Assembly (NCBI RefSeq): GCF_900240945.1
Contig: NZ_OESG01000012.1
Location: 620,001 to 684,000, forward strand
DNA length: 64,000 nucleotides
Direction of reading: 5' to 3'
Source of the DNA: Mycobacterium sp. 3519A
GTDB taxonomy: Bacteria; Actinomycetota; Actinomycetes; Mycobacteriales; Mycobacteriaceae
Position 1 is the first letter of the stretch. Every line of letters starts with the position of its first letter. Below, in pieces: positions 19,824 through 53,438 of this stretch. A program made the translations under genes and the position numbers. The notes under the pieces are model-generated. The model was given only the letters and a program-made list of their open reading frames with translations. It searched no databases and was not told the DNA's origin.

Positions 19824-20484
19824 CGTACTGGTGGTCGACGACGATTTCATGGTCGCCGAAATCCATCGCCGGTTCGTCGAACAGGTCGGCGGCTTCCGCG
19901 CGGTGGGTGTGGCCCGCACCGGCGCAGAGGCGCTCTCCGCGGCACGCGAGTTGAACCCGCAGTTGATCCTGCTCGACGTGTACCTGCCCGATATGACCGG
20001 CCTGGAAGTGTTGCAGCGGTTGCGATCCGAGGGCGACCGGGTGGGCGTCATCATGATCACCGCGGCCCGCGAACTGGACACCGTCAAGGGTGCGCTGGAC
20101 GGCGGGGCAGCGGACTTCTTGATCAAACCGTTCGAATTTCCGCAATTGAAGGCCAAACTGGAGGCATTCGCGGCCCGCGCGGATGCGCTGGAGTCGGCGG
20201 GCGGTGTCGACCAGTCGTTGATCGACACGCTGTTCGGCGGACCGCCCGCCGCTACACCGCAGGAGGTGCTGCCCAAGGGGCTCGGCGCCGAGACGGGTCG
20301 GCTGGTACTGGATGCGGTCCGCGACGCCGGCGAGGTGTCTGCCGCCGAATGCGCTGAGCTGGTGGGGATTTCGCGGGTCAGCGCGCGCCGGTACCTCGAG
20401 CATTATCTCAGTACCGGCGCGCTGGAATTGCGGCTGCAATACGGCGTCGGCCGACCCGAACGGCGTTATCGTTCGACGCGTTAG
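19816..20484 (+). CDS. Response regulator, CitB/DpiA type
   Basis: 222 aa. The receiver domain (1-~118) has acidic residues D8-D10, phosphoacceptor D54 in LLDVYLPDM, and the IKPF lysine near 105. A linker follows, then a C-terminal helix-turn-helix (~160-215: SAAECAELVGISRVSARRYLEHY) as in CitB/DcuR regulators. Overlap with the kinase gene by 8 bp indicates translational coupling. The predicted targets are the divergent tct operon and possibly its own promoter. The 3' end overlaps the tail of the minus-strand HNH exon 2 by 3-4 bp. Confidence 0.93.
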   Translation: MRDVLVVDDDFMVAEIHRRFVEQVGGFRAVGVARTGAEALSAARELNPQLILLDVYLPDMTGLEVLQRLRSEGDRVGVIMITAARELDTVKGALDGGAADFLIKPFEFPQLKAKLEAFAARADALESAGGVDQSLIDTLFGGPPAATPQEVLPKGLGAETGRLVLDAVRDAGEVSAAECAELVGISRVSARRYLEHYLSTGALELRLQYGVGRPERRYRSTR

Positions 20485-20960
20485 AAGGGTGGGTCGTCGT
20501 TGTTGGTGGTGGGTGTGGGTGGTGGTGGTTTCCAGTCGGGTGGGAGTTCTTCGGGTTCGAAGGGTTCGTTGAGCCAGGTGCACCAGGGGCTGGTGCTGTG
20601 TTGTTCGCCTTTGAACAGGATCAGGTAGCGTCGGGATTGGTTGCGCCACTTGCGGAGTTCGATCTCGCGGCGGATGGCGTAGTTGACCCGGCGGTTCTCG
20701 GCGTTGACCGGTCGTTGGGCGCGCAGGTGGGCGCGGGCGCGGTTGATCCGCGCGGCGAGGTCTTTGGCTCTGCTGCGTTTACCTCCGGTGGGTGCTCGGC
20801 AGGCTTGGCGTAGTTGGGGAAACAGGTCATAGCCCAGTGGGCTGGTGGTGTAGGTGCGTCCGGTCGGTGAGGTCCACTCGATGCGGCCGTCGGGTAACTG
20901 TTTATCGCGCCACCCGCCCGGCCCGCCGTGGAAGGTGTAGGCGTCGACCCCGGGCGTAGT
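20481..20960 (-). CDS. 13E12/DUF222 HNH protein, 3' exon (C-terminal 159 aa)
   Basis: On the minus strand, 160 codons are open without interruption from 20960 to a TAA at 20481. They begin TTPGVDAYTFHGGPGGWRD and contain WTSPTGRTYTT, which are the segments that normally follow the HNH motif in the mycobacterial 13E12 repeat family. The C-terminus is Pro/Asp-rich and ends DDPPF. There is no start codon of its own in a sensible place. The frame fits exactly onto the 5' part at 23096-24235 when the group II intron is removed (AAG joined to ACT). It is therefore a 3' exon, not an independent gene. Confidence 0.85.
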   Translation of the reverse strand, partial: TTPGVDAYTFHGGPGGWRDKQLPDGRIEWTSPTGRTYTTSPLGYDLFPQLRQACRAPTGGKRSRAKDLAARINRARAHLRAQRPVNAENRRVNYAIRREIELRKWRNQSRRYLILFKGEQHSTSPWCTWLNEPFEPEELPPDWKPPPPTPTTNNDDPPF

Positions 20961-21002
20961 GTCCCGGATTTCTCAGGGGCTATTTCCCGGGGCCGCGCCC
21001 CC

Positions 21003-21036
<34 letters not shown>

Positions 21037-21044
21037 TCCATAGA

Positions 21045-22499
21045 TCACGCAGGGACGGCTGATGGATTCCAGGGAGTGGGGATCTTGTTGCCGCGGTAGC
21101 GATAACGCTGGATGCGCATCGAGGCCGGGTTGTAGAGCTGCACTCCGGCGTATTCCGGTTTTCGATCCACGTGGTATCGACGGAAGAGCTCGCGCCTGCG
21201 GGTGCGCGGATGTTTGTCGCGCATCCATCCCCAGACCCGCCACCACAGGTAGTGCCCGATGTCGTGGTAGGCGGCGCTAGAACTGCCGTGCCGGAAATAC
21301 TGGGCCCATCCCCGCACCGTCCGGTTGAGCCGGTGAAACAAGACTGCCGGGGAGTGGTAGGTGCTACTGCGTGTGGTCATGGCCTTGATCCGGCGACGAA
21401 TCGATGCCATCGATTTGGTCGACGGATAGCTGTAGACATATGACCGGTGGCTGCCTTTCTGGGGGTGTCGCTGGATGTGAAACCCCAGAAAGTCGAACCC
21501 CTCGTCGATGGACACGACATGCGTTTTCTCCGGGGCTAACCGCAGCCCCAGTGATGCCAGCACGTCGGCCACCTCGCCCTGGATGTGCACCGCATGTTCG
21601 CGGGTGCCGAACACCATGACCACGAAGTCGTCGGCGTACCGGACCAGCCGGTAGGTCGCTCCTCCGCGGTGGCGATGCCGCCTGCGGGCGGTGTCGTTGG
21701 TGCGGGCCTTCCATGTGACCTCGAAGTGGTCATCGAGAACCGACAAGGCGATATTGGCCAGTAACGGCGAAAGGATGCCGCCCTGGGGAGTACCGGCGAC
21801 GCTGTCGCGAACGAAGGACGCTTCTTCGAGCACACCGGCTTTCAGAAACGCCTTGACCAACCCCAGCACGCGTTTGTCGGTGATACGGCCACGAACCCGG
21901 CCCGTCAGGGCGGTGTGATCGATCTCGTCGAAACACGAGGCGATATCGGCCTCCAGCACCCACGTGTAGCCGTGGTGGGCGTTGAAGCGGATCGCCTCGA
22001 TTGCGTCCTGGGCGCGTCGCCCGGGCCGAAACCCATAACTGGCCGCCGAAAAATCGGCCTCAAAGATCGGTTCCAGCACCAATTTCAGCGAGGCCTGCAC
22101 GACACGATCCGCGATAGTCGCGATGCCCAGCTTGCGGACCTTGCCGCCAGTCTTGGGAATCTCGACCCGCCGCACCGGAACTGGAGTGAAAGTACGGGCC
22201 TTCAACTGCCCCCGCAGATCCTCCAGAAACCCTTGCGCACCGTCGGCGGAGGCTTCGATCGAGCGCACCGTCGCCCGATCAATTCCCGCCGTTTTGGCCC
22301 CGCGATTCTCCCGGACCCGTTCCCACGCCGTAACGAGGAAACACGGGTCGGCCACGAGGTTGAACACATCATCAAACCGACGACCACCCTCGGCGGCCGC
22401 CCAACGATGCAACTTGGTCTGCATCCTCAGTACCTGCTGGGCCGCCGCGAACGGACGCTCCAACGCGGCACCGATATTCACCGGCGCATCTTCTGACAT
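21045..22499 (-). CDS. ltrA: Group II intron reverse transcriptase/maturase
   Basis: 484 aa. RT domain blocks are visible: ENRGAKTAGID (RT0/1), R-R-V-IPKTGGKVRKLGI (RT2a), SYGFRPGRRAQDAI (RT3), VLEADIASCFDEIDH (RT3/4, first Asp), TPQGGILSPLLANI (RT4), RYADDFVVM (catalytic YADD), and DFLGF (RT7). A maturase/domain X region follows (HRLNRTVRGWAQYFRHG, ~380-395). The tail is basic, with no HNH endonuclease domain after domain X, so mobility would rely on reverse splicing at replication forks or on other nicks. No frameshift or stop is seen. Start: ATG at 22499. Confidence 0.95.
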   Translation of the reverse strand: MSEDAPVNIGAALERPFAAAQQVLRMQTKLHRWAAAEGGRRFDDVFNLVADPCFLVTAWERVRENRGAKTAGIDRATVRSIEASADGAQGFLEDLRGQLKARTFTPVPVRRVEIPKTGGKVRKLGIATIADRVVQASLKLVLEPIFEADFSAASYGFRPGRRAQDAIEAIRFNAHHGYTWVLEADIASCFDEIDHTALTGRVRGRITDKRVLGLVKAFLKAGVLEEASFVRDSVAGTPQGGILSPLLANIALSVLDDHFEVTWKARTNDTARRRHRHRGGATYRLVRYADDFVVMVFGTREHAVHIQGEVADVLASLGLRLAPEKTHVVSIDEGFDFLGFHIQRHPQKGSHRSYVYSYPSTKSMASIRRRIKAMTTRSSTYHSPAVLFHRLNRTVRGWAQYFRHGSSSAAYHDIGHYLWWRVWGWMRDKHPRTRRRELFRRYHVDRKPEYAGVQLYNPASMRIQRYRYRGNKIPTPWNPSAVPA

Positions 22500-23095
22500 T
22501 GCACTCCCAACATTGCTGATCTACTGCCGCCCTTCCCCATGTGACCGGCTTTCCCGGCCTCGGAGTACTACGACGGCTCCGCCCCGCTACACGCCATCAG
22601 TGGGCAATGACACCTACCCGCCGCACTCCTGGCTGAAATGCGGGAAGGGCAGCCGCGCAGCGGTTCCCGTGTTCACATGCATTCCGATCGACGAGGGAGG
22701 CACCCAGCTATACCCCGGTGACCCCGACGACTACTTCGCAGCTGATTTCATCGTCGGCCAGCGTCCACCCCTGGCCGGGATGGCCGCCGGACGTTCGGAC
22801 ACCAAAAGTCACCGAACGTGCATCACGCACCGACCCACATCCGCCAGATTCGGGGTCGGTTCCACCTAACGAGGCCTCCAACACTGGTTCCTCGCGTATG
22901 CCTTCTCGTCTTGCTCGCCGCGCGCACAGTCCATCTGGCAGTACTGGACCGCCGCGGCTTTGTCAGGGCCGCTTGCCACCAAACCCGCCCATTCCCAGCA
23001 GATCCGGCTGCCCTCAGCTTCACTCAGATCACTGCGACAACCCGAGGATCGGGGTCTCTCACCCCCATTCGGAACACACGCGCCTCACGGCGCAC
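22500..23095 (-). ncRNA. Group II intron 5' ribozyme region (domains I–III, non-coding)
   Basis: 596 nt with no supported gene. Plus-strand and minus-strand frames here are chance openings in GC-rich structured RNA. The first 69 nt are open in frame with exon 1, so unspliced message adds 23 residues (starting VRREARVF) before TGA at 23024-23026. The region contains the candidate exon-binding sites EBS2 (22809-22815) and EBS1 (22631-22638), in the expected 5'-to-3' order. A full secondary-structure fold was not possible by hand. Confidence 0.7.
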
Positions 23096-24235
23096 CTTCA
23101 GCCGGTGATGCTCGCGGCATTCACAACTGAGATCCTCGGCCACGGTCAACCCGCCCGCGGCGGGGTTGGCGTGGTTGAACGGCTGGGTGTGGTCGAGGTC
23201 GCAGATCCAGGCTTTACGGTCACAGCCGGGAAACCGACACGTCAAATCCCGACACCGGATCCAGTTCTCCAACCCCGCCGAGGGCTGATAGCGGTGCGCC
23301 TGCTCCTCAGAGACGTCCGGGCACTCCACCGGGCGGATGATGGCGTGCTCGGCCAACTCACGCACCAACTCGGCGTCGATGACCCCGTAGCCCTCCAGAT
23401 AGCCGGGCTGCTGGCCCTCGCCGGCCACGGTGGCCTCGGTGGCGATCACGTTGATCACCACGCTCGCCGGACTCGCCGGCCGGTCGGGGTCGGGATTCGG
23501 TGTGGCGGGGCAGTCGGGTCGCCCGCAGGCACAGCTCAGCTCGCGGCGCTCGGCCAGCGCCCACAACGCATCGGTGCGCCGCTGATCCATGGTGCGTGGA
23601 TCCTTGCCGCACACCGATGTGGCCATCGCCGCCAACTGTTTGTCGACGATCGCGGCCACCGGCGCGGGCAGCGTGGCGCGCAACTGGGCCATCCCATCCG
23701 GGCCGGGCCTGAGGTGGATGTGGCGTTCATTGTGGGCGCGCACCCGACGCTCCTTGGCCGCTGCCGGGTCGATCTGGCGCACCGCGGCGTCCACGGCGTT
23801 GATGATGCGCTGGCGCGACCAGCACAACCACGACCCGATCCGCTCAGCCAGCAAGGTGTCCAGCGCGGCCATCGACACGGCGTCCTCGACCAGTTCGGTG
23901 CGTTTGATGACCTGCTCCACGGCGCGCCAATCCGTGCCCCCGGCCGCCAGCAGTGCGGCCACCTGCGGCAGCCGGGTGTCCAGTGCCTCGGCCTGGGCCA
24001 CCAGATGCTGCGCACCGCGCGCGGTCATGTTCATCGCCGCCGACACCTCGGCGGTGGTACGGGCGAACCCGGTGATCATCGACCACCCCGGATCCGGATC
24101 CGCAGCCTCGGCCTCGCCGGTGCGCAGCGCCAACAGTGCTGCGATCGCCGCACACCGGCGGGCCATCAACACCGACTCGTCCCGCACAGTGTCCTCGATC
24201 GCGGCGACCAAACCCCCCGCCGACCTATCGAACAT
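23096..24235 (-). CDS. 13E12/DUF222 HNH endonuclease-like protein, 5' exon
   Basis: 380 codons from ATG 24235 ([10 protein letters not shown]...), the start used by this family; upstream in-frame codons are non-conserved and run into insertion-sequence DNA. The DUF222 helical domain occupies ~20-270. Near the end the HNH core is visible: a zinc-type [21 protein letters not shown], then N-H-A-N-P and [10 protein letters not shown]. The group II intron starts immediately after the LK codons. Unspliced, translation ends 23 codons into the intron, giving 403 aa; spliced, 539 aa with the C-terminal domain at 20481-20960. 13E12 genes are often multicopy in mycobacteria; the substrate is unknown. 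Confidence 0.85.
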
Positions 24236-24281
24236 AGGTTCGACACTGCCAGGCCACCCCGACCCGCGTTGACTCTCCAGA

Positions 24282-24318: not shown

Positions 24319-25581
24319 ATGCGCGCGTACGCCCAGTGGATGGGGTTGACATTGGCGCAGCGCAGAGCAATCACCGAGACGATCGCGACCCGCTACCAGC
24401 TGGCGAGTAAGCGCGGCAAGAGTCGCATTCTCGACGAGTTATGCGCCAACACCGGGTGGCACCGAAACCACGCCCGCAAGGCGCTCGCAGCGGCGCTGCA
24501 ACCCAAGGTGTTGACCCCACGCAGTCCCCGGCCAGTGAAGTACGGTCCCGATGTCATCGCCGCGCTGACGATCTGCTGGACAGTGCTCAGAATGCCCGCC
24601 GGCAAACGGCTCGCCCCGATGTTGGGTGAGCTGGTGGCAGTGCTGCGTTATTTCGGACAACTGAACATCGACGACGACACCGCAGTGCTGCTGGCGTCGA
24701 TGTCGGCGGCCACCATCGATCGCCGCCTGGCCAGTGAGCGAGCCAAACATCGGCTCAAAGGACGCGCAGGGACAAAACCGGGATCACTGATCAAAAGCCA
24801 AATCCCGGTGCGCACTTGGGCGGACTGGGACGACTCCCAGCCAGGCTTCGTCGAGATCGACCTGGTCTGGCACGACGGTGGGGGCAGCCGAGCTGCCAAC
24901 CATGCATATACGTTGACGGTCACCGACATCGCCACCGGCTGGATCGAGAATCGCTCCGTACCCGACAGGACCGCCAAATGCGTTCTGGTCGCACTCAATG
25001 ACATCGCCCGCAGAATGCCGTTCCCACTGCTGGGCGTGGACTCCGACAACGGGTCGGAGTTCATCAACGAACACCTACTCCAATGGTGCCAAGGCCGCCA
25101 AATCACCTTCACCCGGGCACGGCCGGGCAATAAGAACGACGGCTGTCACGTCGAGCAGAAGAACTGGGCGGTCGTACGCACAGTTGTCGGCTACCACCGC
25201 TACGACACCGCTGCAGAACTGTTGTTACTCAACGAGATCTGGCAGTTGCACTCCAAGCTAGCCAACTACTTCTACCCTCAGCAGAAGCTGATCTACAAGA
25301 TCCGCCACGGCGCCAAGGTGTCCAAGAAACACGACACCGCCACCACCCCATTTCATCGCGCAATCGATCACCCAACCATGACCGTTGACCGCATCGTGGC
25401 GATGACCCGGACCTACTCCCTCATCAACCCAGCCGCGACCCAACGCCAGATTCAAGCCCTGACCGCCCAACTCACCGCCCTCGCCACCAGCAAAGCCCAA
25501 CCCACAGCCCACCGACCAACCAACAAGCGCGCACAATTACGTGAGGCAACGAATCCCCCCTACGCGCGCATATTGACATGA
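24319..25581 (+). CDS. Transposase, DDE integrase-core (rve) type
   Basis: 420 aa. An N-terminal helix-turn-helix region (~15-60: [27 protein letters not shown]) is followed by a linker. The integrase-core domain has the three acidic residues: D in [12 protein letters not shown] (~175), D in [14 protein letters not shown] (~237), and E in [11 protein letters not shown] (~275). The C-terminal tail is Ala/Thr/Gln-rich. The start ATG lies inside the left-end repeat zone; an alternative is the ATG at 24340. The stop lies past the inner right inverted repeat, which suggests that the true end is further out. No disruption is seen, so the gene may be active. Confidence 0.88.
25542..25572 (-). repeat. 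Insertion sequence right inverted repeat
   Basis: The inverted counterpart of 24282-24312: read on the minus strand it is TATGCGCGCG + TAGGGGG + GATTCGTTGCCTCA. 24 fixed positions match exactly. A further TGAGGCAAC copy lies just outside at ~25579-25587. Confidence 0.7.
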
Positions 25582-25696: not shown

Positions 25697-27226
25697 TCAC
25701 AGCCGGCGTCTGAGCCGGTCCCGGTACGACCGGCCGTCCGGGTCGTAGAACATCCGATAGGCGGGATCGGCCCACAGCCTTGTCAGCAGTCCGAGTCGCT
25801 CGGCCTTGTGTGGTCGCAGCCGCCCCGGCGGACGCCGTCCCGCGCACCCGGACGCATACCAGCCCTCCAACGCCTCGGCGGCGGCCACCATCTCCCGCAC
25901 GGCCGCTTCGGGATCGGCCAGTCCGTCGTCGTCGTCGCGATCGAGGTGTTCCCGCATCAACCGCAGTCGAAGGTCGCGTGCGAACTCGCCGTTCTCGTCG
26001 AGCACCGCGCAGGACAATTCGCTGTCATGCGTCCACGACCGACGGTTGAAGTTGTCGCTCCCGACACTTGCCCAGGTGTCGTCGATGACGCAGACCTTCG
26101 CATGCACGTAAACCGGTGTGCCCTGATGGTTTTCGACGTCGAAGATGTGCACCCGCTCTGGGCTGGCCTCCTTGCACGCATCGATCGCCTGACGACGGCC
26201 AACCATGTTGGGCGGCAACGCAAGTGCCCCATCCACGTCGGGATACCGCGGCACCACCGCGACCAGATGCAACTCCGGATTCTCCTCCAACGCGCGTGCG
26301 AACAACCGCGCCACCCGCTTCGACCACAGGTACTGATCCTCGAGGTAGATCAACCTCCTGGCCCGACGCACCGCCTTGCTGTAGCCGCGCGCCACGCTGC
26401 GCTCGCCGTGGGGCGCGAAGTCGTATTCGAAGTGTGCGTCGGGATATGTGCGCAGCACCTGCACGGCGTGCGACCCGCACACCGGCGGATCCGGCGGTTG
26501 CTCCGGCAACTCCCCCGGCTTGAGGTCCGCACCGCGGAGCTTGTCCTCGATCCACGCGATCGGTGACAAAGTATCCAGCGGCGCCGGGTCGTTCCACCGC
26601 TCCCGGAACGTGTGATCGAGCGCGCCGACGACGGGCCCCCGAAGTTCCAACTGGACGTCGTGCCACGGTGGACGGTCGCCGTAGCGCTTCGACATCTGCA
26701 CCGCCTGCGGGTCACCCCGATGCGACGCGTCGTCGCGGCGCGAGTGGCACAGATCGATGCCGCCCGCGAAGGCCACGTCCCGCGCAGGCTCTGCCGGATG
26801 GCGCAGCACCACCAGCTTCTGATGATGCGAGCCACCGAACCGCACCCGCTGATCGAGCAGCACCTCACCGCCTGCCTCTTCGATCGCCTCGCCGAGGTGC
26901 TCGTTCTCCTCTTCGCTGTCCTGGCACTTGTCCAGATGCGACCGCCACACCAAACCCTTCACGACGACGCCTCTTTCGGCCGCACGCCAGAACAGGTCGC
27001 GGATGGTCGGCCCCTCGTCGCGCAGCTTCTCGTCGGGGTCACCGCGCCAGTCCGTGAAGAACAGATGGTCTCCCGCGCCGAGCGCATCCACCTCGTCCAC
27101 GAGGCGGTCGAAGTACGTCGCACCGTGGATCAGCGGTTCGGCCCGATTGCCTGCACACCAGGCCGGCATCGTCGAAGCGGGATTGCCGCGTTCGGATTCG
27201 GTGAGGAACCAGTCGGCGAGGTTCAC
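25697..27226 (-). CDS. Phospholipase D-family protein (paralogue A)
   Basis: 509 aa from GTG 27226, whose GTGA overlaps the stop of the upstream paralogue; a longer upstream frame lies in that gene. Two PLD half-domains are visible. The first has HHQKLVVLRH followed by AGGIDLCHSRRD; the usual Asp of HxKx4D is Arg. The second has a full HAKVCVIDD followed by GSDNFNRRSW. The architecture resembles eukaryote-type PLDs with the GGIDLC motif. It predicts phospholipid or phosphodiester hydrolysis/transphosphatidylation through a covalent phospho-His. No signal peptide is seen. The downstream neighbour is insertion-sequence debris. Confidence 0.85.
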   Translation of the reverse strand: MNLADWFLTESERGNPASTMPAWCAGNRAEPLIHGATYFDRLVDEVDALGAGDHLFFTDWRGDPDEKLRDEGPTIRDLFWRAAERGVVVKGLVWRSHLDKCQDSEEENEHLGEAIEEAGGEVLLDQRVRFGGSHHQKLVVLRHPAEPARDVAFAGGIDLCHSRRDDASHRGDPQAVQMSKRYGDRPPWHDVQLELRGPVVGALDHTFRERWNDPAPLDTLSPIAWIEDKLRGADLKPGELPEQPPDPPVCGSHAVQVLRTYPDAHFEYDFAPHGERSVARGYSKAVRRARRLIYLEDQYLWSKRVARLFARALEENPELHLVAVVPRYPDVDGALALPPNMVGRRQAIDACKEASPERVHIFDVENHQGTPVYVHAKVCVIDDTWASVGSDNFNRRSWTHDSELSCAVLDENGEFARDLRLRLMREHLDRDDDDGLADPEAAVREMVAAAEALEGWYASGCAGRRPPGRLRPHKAERLGLLTRLWADPAYRMFYDPDGRSYRDRLRRRL

Positions 27227-28770
27227 GGCCGCCACCCCAGCAGCCGATCGCGATACGACCGCCCGTCGGGGTCGTAGATCAGCCGATACGCGGGTTCCGC
27301 CCACAGCCGGGTCAGCGCGTCGACGCGGTCGATCGGGTGGGGACGCAGCCGACCGGGCGGCCGCCGGCCCCGGCGGCCCGATGCATGCCATGCTTCCAAC
27401 CTCTCTGCCGCGGAACGGATCTCGTCGACGGCCGTGCCGGGGTCGGCCAGTCCGCCGTCCTCACTACCGTCGTCGGCCCTGTCGAGGTGCTCGCGCAACA
27501 ACTGCAACCGCAGATCGCGTGCGAACACGTCGTCGGCGTCCAGCACCGCGCAGGACAGTTCGCTGTCATGCGTCCACGACCGTCGGTTGAAGTTGTCACT
27601 GCCCACACACGCCCAAGTGTCGTCGATGACGCAGACCTTCGAGTGCACGTAAACCGGTGTGCCCTCGTGGTTTTCCACGTCGAACACGTGTACCCGATCC
27701 GGCGCCGCGCGTCGGCAGGCGTCCACCGCCAACTGGCGCCCCACCACCGTCGGGGGATGACCGAACCCGCCCTCGAGATCGAAATACCGTGGCACGACGG
27801 CCACCAACTGCAACTCCGGATTCGCCGTCAACGCACCGGCGAGCAGCTTCGCCACCTCCTCCGACCACAGGTACTGGTCTTCGAGGTAGATCAGCCGCCG
27901 GGCGCGCCGCACCGCCTTGGTATAGCCGCGGGCGATGCTGCGTTCCCCGTTCTTGGCGAACTCGTACTTGATCAGCGCATCGCCGTACGTCCGCAACACC
28001 TGCACGGCATGCCGACCGCACGGCGGCGGGTCGGGCGGCGGCTCCGGCAACGCGCGCCTGCCGGCGTCGGCGTCGAGAAACCGGCCCCGCAGCCACTCCA
28101 GCGGATTGAAGACGTTCAGCGGTGCTCTGGCCGTCCACCGCTCGCGGAAGGTGGCATCCAGCGCGGCCACCGCCGGACCGTGCACCTGCAACTGGACGTC
28201 GTGCCACGGAGGCCGCGGGCCGTAATGGTGCGACATCTGCACCGGCTGCGGATCACCGCGGTGCGCCGCGTCGTCGCGCCGCGAATGGCACAGGTCGATC
28301 CCGCCAATGAACGCGGTGTCGCGGTGCGGTTCGTCGAGATGGCGAAGCACCACGAGGCGCTGATGGTGTGAACCGCCGAGCAACACCCGCTGGTCCAGCA
28401 GCACCTCGCCGCCCGCGCGTTCGATCGATTCGGCGAGATGGCGGTTCTGCTCCTCGTTGAACTGCAGCTTGTTGGGGTAGGACCGCCACATCAGGCCTCT
28501 GACGAGGACCCCGCGCTCGGCGGCCGCACGGAACAGTTGCGCGACGGTCGGGCCGGCCTCCCGCAGCCGCTGATCGGCGTCTCCGCGCCAGTCGCTGAAA
28601 AACAGGTGATCACCGGGTCCGAGCGCCTCCACCTCGTCCACGAGGCGGTCGAAGTACGTCGCCCCGTGGACGAGCGCCTCGGCCTCGTTGCCGTCGCTCC
28701 ACGCCGGCAGGCGCCAACTCGGATTCCCGCGCTCCGCGGACGTGAGGAACCATTCCGCAAGGACAGACAC
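27223..28770 (-). CDS. Phospholipase D-family protein (paralogue B)
   Basis: 515 aa from GTG 28770, chosen because the homology to paralogue A begins at L-A-E-W-F-L-T-S-A-E-R-GN; residues further upstream overlap the divergent lipoprotein gene. It aligns with paralogue A along its whole length. The first motif is HHQRLVVLRH, so both Lys and Asp of HxKx4D are replaced by Arg. The second, HSKVCVIDD, is intact. Catalysis may therefore depend on the C-terminal half or on pairing with paralogue A, with which it is translationally coupled. Substrate unknown. Confidence 0.84.
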   Translation of the reverse strand: MSVLAEWFLTSAERGNPSWRLPAWSDGNEAEALVHGATYFDRLVDEVEALGPGDHLFFSDWRGDADQRLREAGPTVAQLFRAAAERGVLVRGLMWRSYPNKLQFNEEQNRHLAESIERAGGEVLLDQRVLLGGSHHQRLVVLRHLDEPHRDTAFIGGIDLCHSRRDDAAHRGDPQPVQMSHHYGPRPPWHDVQLQVHGPAVAALDATFRERWTARAPLNVFNPLEWLRGRFLDADAGRRALPEPPPDPPPCGRHAVQVLRTYGDALIKYEFAKNGERSIARGYTKAVRRARRLIYLEDQYLWSEEVAKLLAGALTANPELQLVAVVPRYFDLEGGFGHPPTVVGRQLAVDACRRAAPDRVHVFDVENHEGTPVYVHSKVCVIDDTWACVGSDNFNRRSWTHDSELSCAVLDADDVFARDLRLQLLREHLDRADDGSEDGGLADPGTAVDEIRSAAERLEAWHASGRRGRRPPGRLRPHPIDRVDALTRLWAEPAYRLIYDPDGRSYRDRLLGWRP

Positions 28771-28807
28771 GCCCTGGGATGCCCGCTGGTGCGTTAACTT
28801 ACGCACT

Positions 28808-30040
28808 ATGGCCGCGGTACGGCGCCTGCTCGCCAGCACGTGCGCTCTCGTCATGCTCGGCGGCTGTGCTCCCGGCGCGCTGCCCAGCCAGACCCCCACC
28901 TCGACCACCGACACCGCCAAGGCCGACGCCGTGATGCGGATCGTCCGCGACACCATGGCGCAGGCGCATCTGCGGGCCGCCATCGTCCGGGTGACCATCG
29001 ACGGCAAGGAACTGGTCACCCAGGCCGTCGGCGAATCGATGACCGGTGTGCCCGCGACCCCTGCAATGCATTTCCGCAACGGCGCCGTGGCGATCTCGTA
29101 TGTGGCCACCCTGCTGCTGAAACTCGTCGACGAGAAGAAGGTCAGCCTCGACGACAAGCTGTCGAAGTGGCTGCCGCACATACCGCATGCCGACCGGGTC
29201 ACGCTCGGCCAACTCGCCCAGATGACGTCCGGCTACGTCGACTACGTCATCGGCAACACCGCGATGAACGACGCGCTGTACGCAAACCCGTTCCGGCGCT
29301 GGACCGTTCCCGACATGCTCAGCTACGCCGTCAACAAGCCGCTGCTCTATCCGCCAGGCACGAACTGGAACTATTCGCACACCAACTACGTGCTGCTTGG
29401 CATGGCGCTCGAGAAGGCCACCGGCGAAGAGATGTCGAAGCTGTTGTCCGACAAGGTGCTTCGCCCCCTCGGCCTGACGAATACCGCGGCCTCCCTCACC
29501 CCCGAGATCCCCCCACCGGTACTGCACGCGTTCACCTCGGAACGCCGGGCCTTCCTCGAGATCCCGTCGGGCACCGACTTCTACGAGGAGTCGACGTTCT
29601 GGGACCCGTCGTGGACGATCACCCACGGTGCGGTGCAGACGACAAATATCTACGACCTGGAGGCCACCGCGGCGGGCATCGGTTCGGGTCGCCTGCTCAC
29701 CGCCGACTCCTACCAGAAGATGGTGTCCACCGACCTTCGCGGCAGGACGCACAAACAACCCGGCTGCACCACCTGCGACGCGATGACCGACGGCTACACC
29801 TACGGCCTCGGAATCGTGATCTCGGGCAACTGGCTGGTGCAGAACCCGATGTTCGGTGGCTACGCCGCGGTCGAGGCCTACTTACCTGCACAGAAGATCG
29901 CAATCGCCGCCGCCGTCACCTTCAGCCCCGAGGCGTTCGACGACCAGGGCAATTACCGCAACGAGGCCGATCCGCTGTTCCGCAAGATCGCCGCCGAACT
30001 CGCCCCCGACGATGCGCCACCCATGCCACCGCCGAAATAA
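28808..30040 (+). CDS. Beta-lactamase-fold lipoprotein lacking catalytic Ser/Lys
   Basis: 410 aa from ATG 28808. An N-terminal signal with lipobox LGGC20 predicts lipid anchoring. The body aligns with class C beta-lactamase/serine-hydrolase proteins: HFRNGAVAISYVATLLLKLV aligns with the usual FRxGSxTKxxTA helix, and VSLDDKLSKWLP, the TLGQLAQMTSGY loop and NYSHTNYVLLG also align. However, the SxxK motif reads A93-V-A-I96, and the YxN motif reads Y189-S-H. The nucleophile and general base are therefore missing, pointing to a binding or structural role, or to a different mechanism. It is divergent from the PLD pair (37 bp between starts) and followed by an amidotransferase 7 bp away. Confidence 0.86.
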   Translation: MAAVRRLLASTCALVMLGGCAPGALPSQTPTSTTDTAKADAVMRIVRDTMAQAHLRAAIVRVTIDGKELVTQAVGESMTGVPATPAMHFRNGAVAISYVATLLLKLVDEKKVSLDDKLSKWLPHIPHADRVTLGQLAQMTSGYVDYVIGNTAMNDALYANPFRRWTVPDMLSYAVNKPLLYPPGTNWNYSHTNYVLLGMALEKATGEEMSKLLSDKVLRPLGLTNTAASLTPEIPPPVLHAFTSERRAFLEIPSGTDFYEESTFWDPSWTITHGAVQTTNIYDLEATAAGIGSGRLLTADSYQKMVSTDLRGRTHKQPGCTTCDAMTDGYTYGLGIVISGNWLVQNPMFGGYAAVEAYLPAQKIAIAAAVTFSPEAFDDQGNYRNEADPLFRKIAAELAPDDAPPMPPPK

Positions 30041-52328: not shown

Positions 52329-53438
52329 TCAACCCCCCACCTTTTCCAGTGCCCGTAGCCGTACCGACGCGCTACGCGGATTGAGTTCGATCTCTTCGGC
52401 GCCCGCACGTTCGGCTCCGCGGGTCAATGCGATGAATTCCGGTCCGTGGCCCGGTAATTCGACCGGCAGTCCCGGTGGGGTGCGAGATGAGGTGGCGGCG
52501 GCGAACTGATTCTTCACGATGCGGTCCTCCAGCGACTGGTAGGCCATCACCACGATCCGGCCGCCGGGTGTCAATGCGTTGAGGGCCGCGGGCAGGGCGT
52601 CCCGCAGCGAGTCCAATTCGCCGTTGACGACGATGCGCAGCGCTTGGAACGTGCGCTTGGCCGGATGCCCGCCGGTGCGGCGGGCGGGGGCGGGAATCGC
52701 CTGATACAGCAACTCGACGAGTTCGCCGGTGGTGACGAACGGCCGCTGCGCGCGGCGGCGAACGATCTGCGCGGCGATGCGGCCCGCGAACCGCTCTTCG
52801 CCGAACTCCCGCAGCACCCGGCTCAGTGTCTTCTCGTCGTAGGTGTTGATGACCTCGGCTGCGGTCAGCTCCGCGTCGGGATCCATCCGCATGTCCAGCG
52901 GTGCGTCGGCAGCGTAGGAGAAGCCGCGCGCGGTGCGGTCGAGTTGCATCGACGAGACGCCGAGGTCGAACAGGATGCCGTGCACTTGGCTTGCCCAGTA
53001 ACCGGTTTCGGCCAACACCCTTTCGATGCCGTCGTAGCGGGTGCGCACCAGCATGACCCGGTCACCGAACCGCGCCAACCGCTCGCCCGCGATCCACAGT
53101 GCGTCCGGGTCGCGGTCGAGGCCGATGAGTCGCAGCCCGGGCAGTTCGGTGAGGAAGCGCTCGGCGTGTCCGCCCGCGCCCAGCGTCGCGTCGATCAGCA
53201 CTGCGCCCTCGCCGTCGGTGTGTTCGCGGGTGAGTGCCGGTTTGAGCAACTCGACACACCTGTCGAGCAGGACGGGAATATGTGGGTGCTCGTTCGAATT
53301 CGCGGCCATCGCAACCTCTTTGATGAAGGCCCCTGCACCGAGGTCCCTGTCCGAGGTCGCGGACCTGACGTCGGGGAAGTACGTCAGGGCCGGTTCGGGC
53401 AGAGGCCACGATGCACGGGCAAGGTGCGGGTCGGCCAC
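52329..53438 (-). CDS. rsmH: 16S rRNA (cytosine-1402-N4)-methyltransferase
   Basis: 369 aa from GTG 53438, one base after the mraZ stop. This start keeps the N-terminal stretch [27 protein letters not shown], which is conserved in M. tuberculosis Rv2165c; internal ATG 53310 ([15 protein letters not shown]) would give the length usual in other bacteria. The SAM-binding core has [14 protein letters not shown] and GLDRDPDAL. Further family motifs are [36 protein letters not shown] and [14 protein letters not shown]. It modifies the ribosomal P site. It is second in the dcw operon. Confidence 0.95.

Follow-up and report, generated by a model that had tools for sequence, protein, structure and literature searches.

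In two of the known systems closest to the one treated here, group II introns sit inside genes of other mobile elements. RmInt1 of Sinorhizobium meliloti is located in a transposase gene that belongs to a mobile element and yields its product only through splicing (PMC4238363), and it has reached ectopic sites through resemblance to its intron-binding sequences (IBSs; PMC5894124, PMC4238363). For other class D introns, too, the hosts are said to include transposase and integrase genes (PMC4238363), and in the case of Ll.LtrB the enzyme encoded by the host gene is made only after splicing (PMC4256276, PMC6003770). The 13E12 HNH genes of mycobacteria have been counted among the LexA targets in M. 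tuberculosis (PMC4181829). Here, we describe a complete group II intron from Mycobacterium sp. 3519A that splits such a DUF222/13E12 HNH-type gene within a 64,000-nucleotide (nt) stretch (positions 620,001 to 684,000 of contig NZ_OESG01000012.1; henceforth the window, to which all coordinates refer).

We consider it likely that a mobile intron whose protein lacks an endonuclease domain entered the DUF222/HNH gene by reverse splicing guided by its exon-binding sequences (EBSs), at a site where its target words overlap the codons of a catalytic motif.

Intron boundaries and the empty site

The interrupted gene and its intron comprise the following features.

23096..24235, minus strand: exon 1 of the DUF222/13E12 HNH gene, 380 codons, ending in HHRLK (Pfam PF02720, DUF222, E 1e-63)
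20937..23095, minus strand: complete group II intron, 2159 nt, with GTGCG at the 5' end and CTAC at the 3' end
20481..20936, minus strand: exon 2, 151 codons plus stop, starting TFHGGPGGWRD and contiguous with exon 1 in homologues
21045..22499, minus strand: intron-encoded protein of 484 amino acids (aa) with reverse transcriptase (RT; YADD) and maturase parts (Pfam RVT_1 and GIIM; TIGR04416)
21003..21038, minus strand: domain V, a 36-nt stretch identical in the relatives L022 and L026
20944, minus strand: bulged A of domain VI in the predicted fold, eight nt upstream of the intron end at 20937
23024..23026, minus strand: stop codon of the unspliced reading, which ends a 403-aa product 23 codons into the intron
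24228..24243, minus strand: LexA/SOS-type palindrome TCGAAC-N4-GTTCGA (TCGAACCTATGTTCGA), which includes the host start codon ATG at 24235

The consensus ends of group II introns are 5' GUGYG and 3' AY, and GTGCG and CTAC agree with them. The 5' end, GTGCG at 23095, stands directly behind CAT CAC CGG CTG AAG (HHRLK). We place the 3' end at 20937 because four lines of evidence agree on it. The Rfam family RF00029 (group II domain V/VI) matches 21038-20937 with 55.5 bits against a gathering threshold of 40 (E 3.5e-8), and domain V together with a domain VI carrying a single bulged A is predicted to fold at -59 kcal/mol (z -4.81), the bulged A at 20944 being the probable branch point. In the own-genome paralogue L007 (loci are numbered with the prefix L), exon 1 residue 380 adjoins exon 2 residue 1 if exon 2 begins at 20936. 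Finally, 28 of the 29 genus homologues collected (L137-L165; L164 is the only one without an exon-2 match) match both exons, and in 28 of 28 K directly precedes T or S. The exon-2 alignment runs gap-free to residue 1 in ten of these 28 and starts at residue 7 or 8 in the other 18, because three or four codons are missing there. The own-genome paralogues L007, L009, L013 and L014 likewise read K, then TF; in the remaining DUF222 loci of this genome, at least one of the two exons could not be matched adequately.

A previous annotation from the letters of the DNA, the sequence-only reading, had ended the intron at 20961 and given exon 2 160 codons starting with TTPG. Rfam, the fold, L007 and the genus homologues rule that end out and move it by 24 nt. 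This leaves exon 2 with 151 codons and a start at TFHGG, and returns to the intron eight codons that had been assigned to the exon. The same reading had staked its junction on uninterrupted homologues continuing as LK-TTPG; the 28 aligned ones read K and then T or S, and TTPG follows K in none of them nor in the four paralogues, so that this junction falls. Its other structural statements withstand scrutiny, namely the start right behind the HHRLK codons, the DUF222/13E12 host, the 403-aa unspliced product, an intron protein without recognized endonuclease domain and the restoration of the reading frame by exon joining, which holds with the corrected end as with the old one. The uninterrupted paralogues that it proposed to align were found, together with an orthologue that displays the empty site. 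The second intron copy that it proposed to look for was not found in this genome, in which one copy of the intron protein was detected.

That orthologue, L137, belongs to a different genome of the genus. Its matches to window positions 23097-24266 (84.9% identity) and 20485-20936 (90.9%) follow each other without a break, and the adjoining gene corresponds to 25697-26901 at 94.6%. L137 is the same locus without the intron, i.e., the empty site. A second copy in the same genome, L179, is intronless too.

The intron-encoded protein passes TIGR04416 with 375.5 bits against a cut-off of 300 (E 2.5e-112), and its YADD box is intact. Profile searches with Pfam and TIGR04416 matched RVT_1 and GIIM and recognized no endonuclease domain in the 484 residues. 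Compared with its closest relative, L020, the protein has a ratio of nonsynonymous to synonymous substitution rates (dN/dS) of 0.169. When the host gene is compared with L137, exon 1 gives 0.275 and exon 2 gives 0.114. All of these values span time before the insertion as well.

Assignment of the host to the DUF222/13E12 family is supported by the DUF222 match of exon 1, which persists in the 403-residue frame that continues into the intron (E 1e-63). At the putative HNH residues, in the alignment with the 28 intronless homologues, DH and the last H are invariant, the preceding H is H or R, and the middle position is D in the window gene and D, G or N across the homologues; a ten-column segment centred on the junction ranks fourth of 518 such segments in conservation. 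The Pfam HNH profile gave no match when exon 1 or exon 2 was scanned singly. The palindrome at the start codon has the form of the mycobacterial LexA-box consensus, and the same type of palindrome stands close to the start in 14 of the 29 homologues.

Upstream of the host gene, an insertion sequence (IS)-type element with an integrase-core (rve) open reading frame (ORF) occupies 24319-25581, just ahead of it; when L137 and L179 are matched to the window, this element is passed over. Further on, at 25697-29202, lie two adjoining and mutually similar ORFs, presumably of phospholipase-D type, both matched by one stretch of L137 (94.6% and 73.7%).

An endonuclease-less intron lineage

The intron belongs to an endonuclease-less, mainly actinobacterial lineage of mobile group II introns. 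Matches to its protein, from 88% identity downward, occur in at least 58 of the 401 genomes sampled from the family, a lower bound since at most three candidates were scored per genome. A scan of genome contigs supplied further relatives, taken as the best 80 loci listed. Viral contigs held only seven relatives, all distant, and the best placed match among phage records was 38.6% identical.

In a tree of 59 proteins, the window intron groups with L020 (support 100/99) and L021 with L022 (99/95), with L032 outside. These five occupy five different host sites: the window gene, an IS1380 gene (L020), a second DUF222/HNH gene (L021), an ISL3 gene (L022) and an IS256 gene (L032). L034 also sits behind an IS1380 transposase. 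An initial BLAST search of both exons against L020-L048 returned no DUF222 gene, and the host of L021 was recognized by Pfam alone. The occupied His-His pattern was found with no mismatch in the own genome only, among 397 sampled genomes of the order that do not include that of L021; with up to two mismatches it occurred in 45 of the 397, mostly in sequences unlike this intron, and a reversed control also matched many.

For comparisons of target sites, we kept 70 introns whose 5' end was recognizable by 14 or more of 16 letters and that had an exon stretch of 25 nt or longer, after removing L008, L026, L035, L057, L065 and L103 by hand as duplicates or for want of a 5' exon. An IS3-type case, L073, fell under the letter limit and lies outside the 70.

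Covariation between introns and their targets

Two columns in the alignment of the 70 intron 5' parts covary with the adjoining exons, and we take them as EBS1 and EBS2. Across 61 introns, the first pairs with the last six exon bases at a mean of 4.90 of 6, compared with 2.51 (standard deviation (sd) 0.15) when exons are dealt at random and a maximum of 3.03 in 300 such draws; it is the best of all alignment columns, the runner-up reaching 3.07 against 2.93 at random. The second, picked over columns and offsets, pairs with exon positions -9 to -13 at 0.77 against 0.42 at random (sd 0.03, 70 introns). Covariation of a single base, as for EBS3-IBS3, was not convincing (best z 3.0 over many columns).

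For the window intron, the following pairings are proposed.

23096..23102, minus strand: IBS1 GCTGAAG, pairing 7 of 7 with the candidate EBS1, four pairs being G-U
22801..22807, minus strand: candidate EBS1 TTTTGGT in a hairpin loop neighbouring the EBS1 column, chosen by eye, as for L020, and tentative
23104..23108, minus strand: IBS2 TCACC, spanning the second His codon of HHRLK
22862..22866, minus strand: putative EBS2 GGTGG, pairing 5 of 5 with TCACC, one pair being G-U

Host sites and catalytic motifs

Of the 70 sites, 34 were assigned to a gene in sense, 29 by Pfam (E 0.01 or better in exon 1 or exon 2) and five by motif only (L033, L038, L064, L080, L105); L032, L044, L053 and L066 are below the Pfam cut-off. 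The Pfam scan of exon 1 used 49 open-frame relatives including L073 and, with the window gene, covers 49 of the 70 sites. L096 was not counted, as its junction lies behind the IS110-type domain that it matches. Three sites are antisense to a gene (L061 and L106 by Pfam, L071 by motif).

The sense sites fall into 19 classes: DUF222/HNH (two), ISL3 (three), IS1380 (two), IS3-type, IS30, IS1634-type, Tn3, IS256, IS630-type, IS1595, IS110, IstB, a tyrosine integrase, a type IV coupling-type ATPase and the RT of another group II intron. In the last, L102 (3365 / 5511) is nested in the RT gene with a YADDF|V junction and a GIIM match in exon 2 (E 1e-18). When the junctions are placed relative to the catalytic residues that we presume for each enzyme family, 12 of the 19 classes and 26 of the 34 loci lie within seven codons of one. 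Residue tests free of this presumption compared the junctions with random places within the same exons (5000 draws, counted by class): Asp occurs in the last four residues in 10 of 19 classes, where random places give 3.73 (sd 1.71; 7 of 5000 draws as high), and in the last seven in 11 against 6.03 (64 of 5000), and Asp, Glu or His occurs in the last four in 16 against 8.84 (6 of 5000), with some bias likely in these class counts since classes entered through being recognizable.

At the DNA level, TGG-N6-GAY, which encodes W-x-x-D, stands exactly at -15 in 11 of the 70 introns, against a background of 30 per 38833 flank positions; nine of the hosts are IS3-type and two IS30, three of the 11 (L033, L064, L080) having been called IS3-type from this motif itself. 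CAY at -12 to -10 is found in 12 of 70 introns. These 12 include the window intron together with its three closest relatives, where CAY is read as the His-His of HNH (window), as IS1380 sequence in another frame, in the second HNH gene and in ISL3. The 15-nt targets of the window intron and L020 agree at 10 of 15 positions, a level that 2% of 621 pairs with different hosts reach. Within the quartet of window intron, L020, L021 and L022, five further pairs exist, and the four of them that were computed are ordinary at 4 to 6 of 15.

An open downstream frame proved uninformative as evidence of frame restoration in the relatives, since no more than 13 of 27 had the in-phase frame as their longest; Pfam on the in-phase exon 2 was therefore used instead, and it recognized a mobile-enzyme or maturase family in seven of nine relatives (L030 and L068 had no match).

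Introns starting TTGCG or TTGTG (L031, L039, L040, L045, L048, L075-L077, L091) occupy sites without recognized genes and end near a conserved CTACTCAG where the 3' part was seen, and some of their 5' flanks look alike. Four related introns (L028, L058, L060, L074) have similar flanks; antisense frames tested for L028 and L058 gave no Pfam match. By eye, the 5' flank of L088 (3411) resembles the 3' half of a tRNA gene in antisense orientation. Elsewhere in the window, an mraW RNA motif lies at 53321-53424 on the minus strand (Rfam RF01746, 77.7 bits).

Probable origin of the insertion and alternative explanations

The likely course of events is that the intron inserted itself, through reverse splicing, in a DUF222/HNH gene carrying a LexA-type box, its EBSs recognizing the target. 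The intron would splice and so restore a 531-residue protein, its mobility would be primed by nascent DNA at replication forks as described for RmInt1, and any control of the host gene would be a by-product. The site would fall in the HNH codons because the target words of the lineage coincide with conserved catalytic-motif codons (here CAYCAY, His-His), and this coincidence would arise because such codons are the stretches most alike in DNA among multicopy mobile and nuclease genes. DNA conservation in active sites is also the reason given for the presence of inteins and group I introns there.

A broader proposal, to which we give slightly less than an even chance, is that this actinobacterial lineage carries EBSs complementary to catalytic-motif DNA, encoding Trp-x-x-Asp-Ile/Leu in DDE transposases and His-His or Phe-His in HNH genes, ISL3 and an integrase, and that its members hop between families (IS3/IS30; IS1380/HNH/ISL3), the window intron representing one such jump. 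As unrelated enzymes share short codon words, introns could pass between mobile-element families in this way. Were this so, there would be a testable reason for the occurrence of such introns in transposase, integrase and nuclease genes, and few EBS changes would suffice for a switch of host family. Our literature search, which had most subscription journals outside its reach, found no report of a catalytic-codon coincidence across unrelated enzymes or of group II introns in 13E12 genes.

Several observations weigh against entry by EBS-guided reverse splicing at catalytic-motif words. EBS1 forms at least five of six pairs in 47 of 61 introns, EBS2 in only 41 of 70. The window intron and L020 have a gap in the EBS1 column and are therefore outside the EBS1 statistic; the candidate EBS1 proposed for the window intron is rich in wobble pairs (4 of 7 G-U), and a 7-mer at intron position 458 would pair better. 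No host was assigned at 33 of 70 sites, and the scan in sense covered 49 of the 70 exons. Seven of the 19 classes (both IS1380, one ISL3, Tn3, IS256, IS630-type, IS110) lie away from a presumed catalytic residue, and Trp in the last seven residues shows no enrichment by class (3.33 against 2.60; 1306 of 5000 draws). Between the two HNH sites, 6 of the 15 target positions agree, a level attained by one-third of pairs with different hosts. Lastly, in a three-way comparison of nonsynonymous and synonymous changes (exon 1: window 46/42, L137 27/34, L179 28/40; exon 2: window 7/9, L137 5/18, L179 10/10), the nonsynonymous share on the window branch is somewhat raised, at most a hint of relaxed selection.

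We regard it as unlikely that the insertion serves as a regulatory switch, in which inefficient or conditional splicing would set the ratio of full-length to 403-residue product or throttle a harmful, damage-induced nuclease. The LexA-type box near the start, which 14 of the 29 homologues have as well, and the stop 23 codons into the intron would accord with such a role, a wobble-rich EBS1 would suit weak splicing, and RmInt1 has been proposed to throttle its insertion sequence (PMC4238363). However, the 23 residues of the tail are read from the intron 5' end, and L020 has almost the same 5' end although its host is read in a different phase, so nothing marks the tail as a selected protein; the switch between two forms of the nuclease-like protein proposed in the sequence-only reading has the premature stop as its one basis. 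Moreover, some relatives lie antisense to their host gene, where splicing cannot restore it. These antisense insertions apparently also fall at catalytic codons, which weakly favors target recognition over selection for splicing, with the reservation that the IS630-type DE codon placement of L061 comes from its 5' flank alone and its pattern-assigned 3' end misfits, that L071 was called by motif and that L106 is not beside a catalytic residue.

Quite unlikely, too, is a dead insertion, i.e., a host pseudogene with an intron that no longer splices. The raised nonsynonymous share on the window branch, the weak EBS1 candidate and the IS-type element directly upstream point in this direction; against it, both exons are open, exon 2 has a dN/dS of 0.114 (a value that includes time before the insertion), and RT, domain V and domain VI are intact.

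Very improbable, finally, is nuclease-assisted mobility, a possibility raised in the sequence-only reading, in which the host HNH protein would nick DNA and help to prime reverse transcription by analogy to the LtrB relaxase, which stimulates Ll.LtrB (PMC4256276): an intron protein without recognized endonuclease domain and the location of L021 in a second DUF222/HNH gene would suit it, yet the own genome yielded one copy only, the sister intron L020 has an IS1380 gene as host, the nuclease activity of the DUF222/HNH protein is only putative, and the occupied His-His pattern is exact in the own genome only (in the order sample without the genome of L021).

Entry by EBS-guided reverse splicing remains our preferred explanation. 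It adds a nuclease-type gene with a LexA-type box to the hosts, which would couple intron expression to DNA damage, and for annotation the intron accounts for a split DUF222/HNH gene.

Comparison with known systems

Like the window intron, RmInt1 (IIB3, class D; in ISRm2011-2) encodes a protein without an endonuclease domain (PMC5894124, PMC8914252), as do the group g1 introns of Toro and Martinez-Abarca (2013), including Rh.js.I1, in a study whose main text uses neither the word transposase nor insertion site (PMC3552965). Unlike RmInt1, the window intron has a DUF222/HNH gene with a LexA-type box as its host and was found in a single copy, and the bias toward catalytic motifs proposed for its lineage is not mentioned in the accessible text on RmInt1. 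The closest intron protein found is 88% identical to that of the window intron. Ll.LtrB, in the relaxase gene of pRS01, resembles it in occupying the gene of a DNA-cutting enzyme on a mobile element (PMC4256276, PMC6003770) and differs in that its own protein has endonuclease activity (PMC5894124); an effect of the relaxase on Ll.LtrB mobility was demonstrated by experiment (PMC4256276), whereas for the window intron a comparable effect would be an analogy. With the mycobacterial 13E12/DUF222 HNH family the host gene shares DUF222, an HNH-like motif and the LexA-type box (PMC4181829), and it departs from that family in being interrupted by a group II intron. The window intron adds a member to an established kind, that of mobile group II introns which lack an endonuclease and occupy mobile-type or DNA-cutting genes.

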